From NCBI GenBank assembly GCA_001599295.1, contig BCGN01000007.1, forward strand, positions 919,791 through 983,790: a stretch of DNA of 64,000 nt, in the 5' to 3' direction. The DNA comes from Sporopachydermia quercuum. Lineage: Eukaryota; Ascomycota; Sporopachydermiomycetes; Sporopachydermiales; Sporopachydermiaceae. The notes beneath the pieces were generated by a model. That model did no database searches, was not told the origin of the DNA, and worked only from the letters and a program-made list of their open reading frames with translations. The translations under genes were made by a program, and so were the position numbers. The first letter of the stretch is position 1. Every line of letters starts with the position of its first letter. Positions 16,352 through 52,587 of the stretch are shown in pieces.

Positions 16352-18095
16352 ATGAACGTAAGTGCAACAGTCAATGTCTTTAGACTGCTGTTCAATCCTT
16401 CATTGGCCATTCCTCATTTAACGGTATCATCGTTTGATAAAATCCCAATTCCTGTGACAATTCCTGCTCACCTGAATAAGGGAATTAATGGCGATTATGC
16501 GAATGAAAAGGATGAGTTGCGAATTACTAGAAATATCAAGGTATTGGTCTTAGATAAGGATAACTGTTTTGCATATCCACATGATGACAAAGTGTGGCCA
16601 GCTTATGAGGTATGTACTGATTGATTGGAGAAAAAGGAAGAATAGTAAATGGTATAAACTGGAATGCCCAAGAGGAAATGACGCAAAAAATCATAAGTCA
16701 GGGAATATTAGTAGGAATGTGGGGAATTGGAATGTATGAATTGTATGAAATGATGGAACCAAAATGGTAGAATCAAAGAGATAGCAGGGACAACCATTAT
16801 TTGATATGATCTTGTACTATTGCAAAGCAGTTCTTAGTACTGTGGCTATTATTGTTATTATTACTTTTATTGCTGCAAGTATTAATATGCTTATGTTTAC
16901 TATTCCTAATAGCTCTTACTGTAATTGCTATCACTCGGTTAATTCTGTCATTTGATAATGACAGAATTGAATTCAAATTTTAGGCAAATTGCTATAAAAT
17001 CTAGCAGCAGCGAGTATTCTGTTTATTAGAAAATATTTTGACATCACGATATCAAATGATATTGTAGCTGAAGGCAAGTCATCATATTTCAATAAAGAGA
17101 GTCATTCAACTCCAAGAAGCATGAAATCATTCTGAAAATAGACATGATAAATGGTTGATGGCAGGAATTCAACAACCAGATTAGTTTTAGAAGACTGGCG
17201 ATAAATGAATGGTACTATTTGAATTATAGTAATAAGAACTGCCGATATTGATGATAGCAATATATAATAAAAGAGCAAACCATAGGGGTTGAGAGGGAAT
17301 GATGTTTCCTTTGGTATCGAAATAGCAAATCACTGTTTTTGATATGCTCTGAAATATTGGGACTTCTGTTGATTGTACTGGCTTTGTTTTACTGTTGATG
17401 TTATCATTGATTATCGCTTTCTTGTTGCTTTGTCGTTCTTTCTATAGTCATTCTGGCGGAAGTTGTTCATTTGCACAATCAATGTATTATTTCCATTATT
17501 TCCATTATTTTCTCCGAGTTTTTGTTATAGTATCCTCACTTGCGCTTATTATGTCCGCTTTGTGGTTCATGCTATCCGATATTTGCTCCATCTTCTCCGG
17601 TTTATCTTGTATCTACCAGGTTCTTCTTATCTTTCTTAGCCCTCTTACCCCTCGTTACTAACACTCTTTTAGTCCTACTTCTCATCCCTGAAATCTCATT
17701 ATACCCCGCAAAGACTCCTCATTGTTTCAAACTCAGCAGGAACAAATGACGACCCAAACCATTCCCAAGCATTAGCACTGGAGCAATCAACAGGCATTCC
17801 TGTTCTGAGGCACTCGACAAAAAAACCCGGCTGTTATAAAGACATAATTGAATATTTTAAAACTCGGGGTATGATTGAAGATGCCAGTGAAATAGGCATA
17901 ATTGGAGATCGGTTATTTACGGATGTGTTGATGGCTAATATGATGGGTGCATGGAGCATTTGGGTTCGGGACGGAGTTAAAGTTTCAGAGAGTTTGATAT
18001 GTAAGTTTGAGCGGTCCTATGCGGGCTGGTGGAGTTCGCGAGGGGTCAAGGCTCCGGTTCCGGTTTCCGGAAGTTCCGGTTCGCGAAGAACATAA
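16352..18095 (+). CDS. GEP4: Mitochondrial phosphatidylglycerophosphatase GEP4 (two exons)
   Basis: Exon 1 is 16352-16609 and exon 2 is 17673-18095, giving 226 aa. The intron of 1063 nt starts GTATGT and ends TTACTAACACTCTTTTAG; the phase-0 join reads WPAYE|SYFSSLK. Family motifs are present: VLDKDN (HAD nucleophile motif), VSNSAG, the KPGC lysine motif, and GDRLFTDVLMANMMG. Gep4 dephosphorylates phosphatidylglycerophosphate to phosphatidylglycerol, the cardiolipin precursor, in the mitochondrial inner membrane. S. cerevisiae Gep4 is about 185 aa; homology runs to about CKFERSY and a tail rich in Gly, Ser, Pro and Arg follows. The intron probably carries a box C/D snoRNA. The gene is convergent with TRA1. 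Confidence 0.94.
17242..17360 (+). ncRNA. Candidate intronic box C/D snoRNA targeting the 5' end of 25S rRNA
   Basis: Lies inside the GEP4 intron, same strand. The C box TGATGA (17249-17254) and D box CTGA (17349-17352) are closed by a 7-bp terminal stem (CCGATAT 17242-17248 with ATATTGG 17354-17360, one G-U pair). Internal boxes look like D' TTGA (17289-17292) and C' TGATGT (17300-17305). The 10 nt directly against the D box, TTGATATGCT (17339-17348), are exactly complementary to AGCATATCAA, the conserved 5'-end segment of fungal 25S rRNA where the standard D1/D2 forward primer anneals. By the D+5 rule the target is the first U of GCAUAUC. I found no match for the D' guide. Being intronic would explain why this intron is so long. 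Confidence 0.7.
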
Positions 18096-42237: not shown

Positions 42238-42325
42238 TCGGCAATAGTTTAGTGGCTAGAATTTCCGCCTGTCAGAACATTCGTTCAGCGCGCGGGGGAC
42301 CGGGGTTCAATTCCCCGTTGCCGAG
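42238..42325 (+). tRNA. tRNA-Asp (GTC) with a 16-nt intron
   Basis: The acceptor stem TCGGCAA/TTGCCGA is perfect and the discriminator is G. The D-arm GTTT/GAAT is the same as in S. cerevisiae tRNA-Asp. The anticodon stem TCCGC/GCGGG flanks a loop starting CTGTC, which puts GTC at the anticodon. Eighteen bases lie between CTGTC and GCGGG; removing 16 after position 37 leaves a normal 7-nt loop and a 72-nt mature tRNA. The T-arm CGGGG-TTCAATT-CCCCG is canonical. Internal promoters are an A box (TAGTTTAGTGG) and a B box (GGTTCAATTCC). An intron in tRNA-Asp is not found in S. cerevisiae, to my knowledge. Confidence 0.95.
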
Positions 42326-51480: not shown

Positions 51481-52587
51481 TCACACATGAAACAACCAAA
51501 CGACTCCATAAAGAAAGAATGCACTTATAACAGGGATAGTTATATTATCATCGAAATCCCAAAGATCGATTCCTTCACTGATGGCACCAATAAAACCACA
51601 AAGAACAGTAAATATGCCAAAGTTCAGCTTTGATGTTTCTGTTGAATAAAAAATATCTCCAGGAAGATTATATTCTTCACACCTGGGTATGAAATATCCA
51701 TAGAGTAACACACATGCAAGTATACCGCAAATGAATGCAGCGATAGAACCAGCTAATGATTTACCTTTTGATATCTTTGGTGTTAAATGCCCATAAGCAC
51801 GTCCGAAGGTAGATGCTGCTGTATCAGACCACGAAAGTAATAGCAATGCCATCAGGCAGATATCTTTAGGAAAAAGAAGGAAAACAATGATCAATCCTAG
51901 TAAATACCAAATGACACCATTATACCTTGTTACTTCTTTTTCTCTCATCAATGCACCACATAGTTGGATATATAGCTTATTGATTTCTTCATTTCGAAAT
52001 CTAATGAAGTCAATAGATGTGATAGATACAAGCATAGCTATTAAAACCGGAGTAACCTGCGATAGCTTTATACCCTGAGTATAGAAATAAAGGGTAAGGA
52101 ATCCAATTGATACATGCAAGAACTTCCTTGGGATTTCGTGTTTATGAACGAATGAACTGAATCTTTTATGTGAAGGAATAGTTATTGAGTTTAACGAAAG
52201 ATTTGACATGGACTCTTTAGTTGATCTTAGTGTTGCAGCTAGTGTAGAAGCTAAAGATGCTGTTGATGAGACCCTTGAAACGTTCTTACTTTCTGTTTCT
52301 GGGCTCAGCGAATCTTTCAACAATTTACTGTAAGCCTCACCATTGCTCACACCATTTGGTTCTTTATCTAACTTTGATTTTCTTACTGATGACAATGAAG
52401 TCGAACTAGAACTAGAACTTGATATTGAGAAGGCTGAGTGAACTGTTTGTGTTGATACTGCACTATCTTGTTCAAAGTCTGAAGAGTCTACTGATTCCAC
52501 ATTATCTATCATTGATTGGATAGATGGAGCTTTCACTCTAATTGAAGGAACATTTTCATCTTGAATTGGAAGTATGTCCGTCACCAT
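51481..52587 (-). CDS. DGK1: CTP-dependent diacylglycerol kinase DGK1
   Basis: A 368-residue protein: a Ser-rich cytosolic N-terminus of about 140 residues, then a multi-span membrane domain. Family blocks include HEIPRKFLHVSIGFLTLYFY, RFRNEEINKLY, KEVTRYNGVIWYLLG, LLSWSDTAASTFGRAYGH, KGKSLAGSIAAFICG and FIGAISEGIDLWDFDDNITIPVISAFFLYG. This is the CTP-transferase fold shared with dolichol kinase and SEC59. Dgk1 phosphorylates diacylglycerol with CTP at the ER/nuclear membrane, opposing the phosphatase Pah1. S. cerevisiae Dgk1 is about 290 aa, so the N-terminus is longer here. It is adjacent to NOP58, as in S. cerevisiae, but divergently oriented. Confidence 0.95.
   Translation of the reverse strand: MVTDILPIQDENVPSIRVKAPSIQSMIDNVESVDSSDFEQDSAVSTQTVHSAFSISSSSSSSTSLSSVRKSKLDKEPNGVSNGEAYSKLLKDSLSPETESKNVSRVSSTASLASTLAATLRSTKESMSNLSLNSITIPSHKRFSSFVHKHEIPRKFLHVSIGFLTLYFYTQGIKLSQVTPVLIAMLVSITSIDFIRFRNEEINKLYIQLCGALMREKEVTRYNGVIWYLLGLIIVFLLFPKDICLMALLLLSWSDTAASTFGRAYGHLTPKISKGKSLAGSIAAFICGILACVLLYGYFIPRCEEYNLPGDIFYSTETSKLNFGIFTVLCGFIGAISEGIDLWDFDDNITIPVISAFFLYGVVWLFHV

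Follow-up and report, generated by a model that had tools for sequence, protein, structure and literature searches.

The 1063-nt intron of the GEP4 gene in the yeast Sporopachydermia quercuum contains a short segment with the anatomy of a box C/D snoRNA. The best reading of this anatomy, to which we assign a probability of about 0.6 from the sequence, is an intron-encoded snoRNA that would guide 2′-O-methylation of U44 in 25S rRNA. That the segment encodes a box C/D snoRNA of some kind, which is the sum of three readings considered below, appears likely. It is probably a known kind of RNA, in which the new elements would be the GEP4 host and the U44 target. GEP4, which encodes a mitochondrial PGP phosphatase, would be an unusual snoRNA host, being neither a ribosomal nor a translation gene. 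If the candidate is real, a fungal guide would be added in a 25S segment that is known for its methylations in plants, the hosting of snoRNAs in a yeast would extend outside translation genes, and the long GEP4 intron would have one reason for its persistence.

How might such an RNA be produced, and how might it act? We propose that the GEP4 intron would be spliced and debranched, and that exonucleases would then trim it back to a stable RNA, protected within a snoRNP by Snu13, Nop56, Nop58 and fibrillarin. The guide adjoining box D would pair with positions 40–49 of 25S in the pre-rRNA, placing U44 opposite the fifth nucleotide upstream of box D, where its 2′-OH would be methylated by fibrillarin.

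Host intron and anatomy of the candidate

The window, that is, the whole stretch of DNA analysed here, comprises 64,000 nt of contig BCGN01000007.1 and belongs to an assembly of 16.4 Mb in 12 contigs, which was searched genome-wide. The host gene was identified from its joined exons, which match PF09419 (4.9e-68). The nearest relatives of the GEP4 protein are those of budding yeasts; among the matches listed, the identities are 53–60% for named Wickerhamomyces proteins and 57–60% for the three top-scoring ones. The protein of a TRA1 region is also nearest to budding yeasts, with 49% identity for the best of the 120 matches listed. The length of the GEP4 intron agrees with the preliminary description of this DNA, and the intron has GTATGT, TACTAAC and AG motifs (Table 1). 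A repeat origin of the intron was considered and rejected, in that a whole-genome DNA search returned a single match, the intron itself. The purine content of the intron is 0.69 in its first 100 nt and 0.25 in its last 63 nt, which form a pyrimidine-rich 3′ end. Upstream of the candidate, the same intron also contains a perfect hairpin at window positions 16941–16968, in which 12 bp (AATTCTGTCATT/AATGACAGAATT) enclose a loop of 4 nt.

For the intron as a whole, the folding energy is −257.4 kcal/mol. This corresponds to a z-score of −1.5 relative to global shuffles, of which 5 of 60 were at least as stable, and to −2.8 relative to shuffles in 60-nt blocks, of which 1 of 60 was at least as stable. 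These fold statistics do not settle the question of whether the intron is retained for the sake of an RNA.

Table 1. Positions in the window of the GEP4 gene and of the elements of the candidate RNA.
Feature	Position	Strand	Basis or remark
GEP4 exon 1	16352..16609	+	ORF; spliced protein matches PF09419 and GEP4 proteins
GEP4 intron, 1063 nt	16610..17672	+	GTATGT at 16610, TACTAAC at 17656-17662, AG ending at 17672
Candidate box C/D snoRNA, about 119 nt	17242..17360	+	Boxes, stem and fold; ends placed by the stem
Closing stem, 5′ arm, CCGAUAU	17242..17248	+	Pairs with 3′ arm; not in canonical kink-turn register
Box C, UUGAUGA	17248..17254	+	UGAUGA core exact at 17249; first base off consensus RUGAUGA
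Possible box D′, UUGA	17289..17292	+	Sequence motif
Possible box C′, AUGAUGU	17299..17305	+	Overlaps a predicted hairpin in part
Possible extra pairing with 25S 51–56, past bulged U50	17333..17338	+	Pairing of the whole region not significant
Putative guide, UUGAUAUGCU	17339..17348	+	10 Watson–Crick pairs with 25S 40–49; A17344 faces U44 (D+5)
Box D, CUGA	17349..17352	+	Exact motif
Closing stem, 3′ arm, AUAUUGG	17354..17360	+	Pairs with 5′ arm
GEP4 exon 2 and stop	17673..18095	+	ORF; PF09419 match of the spliced protein

A C box, a D box and plausible D′ and C′ boxes had been reported in this intron, and all four motifs are present in the place then indicated. The candidate has both of the boxes that a box C/D snoRNA requires, with the first base of box C off the consensus. 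The possible D′ box is followed by the possible C′ box, which is the right order; both are short, degenerate motifs. The RNA from 17242 to 17364 folds at −28.4 kcal/mol (z = −2.12), and 8 of 200 shuffles were at least as stable.

Two snoRNAs of the same genome served as controls: an snR39/59-like snoRNA in an RPL7 intron (L013 1158–1244, minus strand) and a U24-like snoRNA in an ASC1 intron (L012, about 1404–1490), the two introns being approximately 228 and 430 nt long, as judged by eye; the GEP4 intron had been described as far longer than most other introns of this DNA. Both resemble the candidate in their intron-hosted C/D layout, but they differ from it in having translation genes as hosts, in their targets, which we take to be the classical ones, and in their shorter C–D distances, the 100 nt of the candidate exceeding both the 67 nt of the RPL7 control and the 74 nt of the ASC1 control. 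With respect to the closing stem, the preliminary description stands in part: a 7-bp stem is there, with one G–U pair, but it does not keep the canonical kink-turn register. Given the geometry of the kink-turn, the first five positions of this register are paired at positions 1 and 3 in the candidate, compared with four of five in the RPL7 control and one of five in the ASC1 control. The kink-turn includes a 3-nt loop (PMC5689011). The 7-bp stem of the candidate may act as an external stem.

Complementarity to the 5′ segment of 25S rRNA

The 10 nt adjoining box D had been described as exactly complementary to the 5′ segment of fungal 25S rRNA, and they are indeed a perfect complement of AGCAUAUCAA, which corresponds to positions 40–49 of 25S in our reference, the rDNA contig L005. 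Because the guide lies opposite these positions, D+5 falls on U44 in the numbering of L005, and this nucleotide is the first U of GCAUAUC, the methylation site predicted earlier. A box C/D guide is expected to present approximately 10 nt or more of target complementarity directly upstream of D or D′; at box D, the candidate presents 10 Watson–Crick pairs, and U44 is a plausible target of such a guide. The duplex is short, A+U-rich and weak, with a computed energy of −11.5 kcal/mol, compared with −15.0 kcal/mol for the corresponding 10 nt of the RPL7 control, upstream of its D box, paired with their own complement.

The target rRNA was read from L005, the sequence of which we take to be yeast-like, and consisted of 18S, ITS, 5.8S and 25S 1–360 (2318 nt in total). 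This contig, which contains 18S, 5.8S, the start of 25S and 5S, matches Rfam eukaryotic rRNA families; its record is that of a bacterium, Planomonospora parontospora, presumably as a result of contamination. Eukaryotic rDNA is also found at positions 1–2500 of L004, which is filed under an uncultured Coleofasciculus MAG and is presumably another contamination. Searches of the S. quercuum assembly for its own rDNA, with an exact 25S pattern and with an 18S pattern allowing two mismatches, gave 0 matches each. We infer that the same 25S segment is found in this species.

We scanned these rRNA sequences for guide matches of at least 9 nt starting 0–2 nt from the D box. When G–U pairs were excluded, the 25S 40–49 match and its own sub-match were the sole matches in 18S, ITS, 5.8S and 25S 1–360. 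When G–U pairs were allowed, the same D-box guide had longer matches elsewhere, namely 12 nt with four G–U pairs in ITS2 and 11 nt with three G–U pairs in 18S. The possible D′ guide, upstream of 17289, had no match of at least 9 nt in the same rRNA sequences. Two further D-like positions were tried and set aside: position 17333 had no match of at least 9 nt in the rRNA used, and position 17299 had a 10-nt match with one G–U pair at the 5.8S/ITS2 border, together with its sub-match.

Coincidence and other readings

How often might such an arrangement arise by coincidence? We defined a C/D pair as an exact UGAUGA followed by CUGA at a distance of 45–130 nt, with a stem of at least 7 bp starting 0–2 nt from the boxes. 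When 5000 sequences were simulated from the GEP4 intron with an order-1 Markov model, 0.68% contained a pair of this kind. For the window, the mean over 100 Markov sequences was 0.13 such pairs per strand, and the window itself has one on each strand. For a random 10-mer with the composition of the intron, the probability of a match to the 2318 nt of rRNA is 0.0029, or approximately 0.0066 when scaled to 5354 nt; the rough chance of 0.5% given in the preliminary description is close to this computed value of about 0.66%. Among all 10-mers of the window, 0.29% match the rRNA, as do 4 of the 540 (0.74%) that adjoin CTGA, and among these four sites in the window a C box lies 45–130 nt upstream for the candidate only.

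The genome-wide distribution of the guide was considered in the same way. The sequence TTGATATGCTNTGA is found twice in the 16.4-Mb genome and once together with CTGA, at the candidate. The pattern TTGATATG followed by CTGA within 0–2 nt is found at 22 places, compared with five for the reversed pattern, and all 22 were examined for a TGATG motif 20–160 nt upstream. At the candidate, the C box lies at 100 nt, the stem has 7 bp and the longest open frame is 84 aa. The motif occurs at five other places: at 26 nt in L018 (stem 2, 310-aa open frame), at 105 nt (stem 1) and 82 nt (stem 3) in L020, at 138 nt (stem 2) and 34 nt (stem 5) in L022, at 157 nt (stem 7) and 52 nt (stem 3) in L031, which has a 520-aa frame, and at 140 and 78 nt (both stems 3) in L032, which has a 700-aa frame. 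A C box within range, a stem of 7 bp and the absence of a long open frame coincide at the candidate alone (1 of 22), and this pattern search, with its 22 places checked, revealed no second guide of the same kind in the genome.

A product of these rates, which is our own estimate, amounts to 0.4 coincidences over the genome and 0.002 over both strands of the window. Because of the former value, it is the location in an intron that carries the argument, and within this single intron the same product is approximately 5e-5. We regard it as unlikely, although deserving of serious attention, that the intron is merely long and that boxes, stem and 10-nt rRNA match coincide in it by chance. The expectation over the genome and over the window would allow such a coincidence, and both the stem register and box C of the candidate are imperfect. 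Moreover, the other C/D pair of the window, also closed by 7 bp and located at positions 51950–51855 on the minus strand, lies within a 375-aa open frame and is probably due to chance, so that box-and-stem pairs can evidently arise without a snoRNA. These considerations are countered by the low rate within the intron, by the rRNA match that touches the D box exactly and by the full context, which is found at only one of the 22 places genome-wide.

Two alternatives retain a real C/D snoRNA. In one, the RNA would pair with 25S 40–49 but leave it unmethylated, serving as a placeholder or a folding chaperone, as reported for S. cerevisiae snR190. That RNA is perfectly complementary to a segment of 25S domain I which, in the mature subunit, is base-paired with 5.8S, and it does not direct methylation of the site predicted for it (PMC8536666). 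Such a role is improbable for the candidate, the guide of which directly adjoins an exact D box with the spacing of a methylation guide; when the whole region was aligned with 25S 1–360, the extended pairing, which we rejected as evidence, was no better than that of shuffled sequences, 57 of 300 being at least as strong. In the other, the true target would lie in the rest of 25S or in an snRNA, or there would be none, and the U44 match would be incidental. The rRNA comparison covered positions 1–360 of 25S, G–U-containing matches of the guide exist in ITS2 and 18S, and orphan C/D RNAs occur in a table of N. crassa C/D RNAs (PMC2780460), but a perfect 10-nt match in the D-box position has a chance of only about 0.7%, and we consider this alternative very improbable.

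Known guides, hosts and Rfam

If the candidate guides methylation of U44, its closest counterparts in function would be Arabidopsis SnoR120 and SnoR16, which are guides for the same 25S 5′ segment. SnoR120 differs in its site, in that plant U44 is presumably the second U of GCAUAUC, whereas the site predicted for the candidate is the first, which lies two nucleotides from it. In the plant sequence as we take it to be, the letters of C40, U44 and U48 fit, and the predicted yeast site would correspond, in our presumed alignment, to plant U42. Table 2 of PMC11542601 gives the 25S methylations Cm40 in tobacco and Um44 and Um48 in three plants, with Um46 of an alga placed in the Um48 row, and U42 is absent from the plant sites that it lists. 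The same rows contain no yeast entry; because the yeast column is confined to sites shared with plants, the table cannot decide whether U44 is methylated in S. cerevisiae (PMC11542601). In Arabidopsis, U44 has been assigned to SnoR120 and U48 to SnoR16 (PMC8053127). We tentatively suggest, as a possibility that we hold with some reserve, that a budding-yeast lineage independently gained methylation of this plant-methylated segment, two nucleotides from a plant site, by means of an intronic guide in a mitochondrial-lipid gene, which would link the two transcripts.

Among yeasts, S. pombe snR107 and S. cerevisiae snR190 are likewise C/D RNAs that pair with 25S; snR107 is intronic, with a long non-coding RNA as its host, and snR190 pairs with domain I (PMC8536666), as the candidate would. 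They differ from the candidate in their predicted or shown sites, G2483 and G2395 rather than U44. The table of N. crassa C/D RNAs contains seven entries with 10-nt matches and no 26S target before position 356 (PMC2780460). RPL7 and NOG2 are conserved snoRNA hosts among fungal introns (PMC8476143), and the main text of that study does not contain the term GEP4. Predicted guides may lack activity in cells, a point made mostly for H/ACA guides (PMC8522698). In those portions of the literature that were searched, no fungal guide for 25S U44 is named; 'The fungal snoRNAome' (PMC5824354) could describe one.

The candidate has no match in Rfam at gathering scores. At E ≤ 10, no C/D family is found at its place, where a Listeria sRNA family overlaps it (E 2.4), and weak scores of C/D families occur elsewhere in the window. 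The scores of the RPL7 control, 30.1 and 36.6, fall below the cut-offs of 55 and 70, and the ASC1 control is not reported at E ≤ 1; the silence of Rfam on the candidate therefore has little force. As these two controls suggest, even snoRNAs of classical type can escape the Rfam cut-offs in this lineage. A search of the genome with the SNORD24 family found nothing, and it is uninformative because the family was silent in all 14 of 14 control genomes as well. At gathering scores, Rfam recognises a single feature of the window, a tRNA gene at positions 42238–42325.
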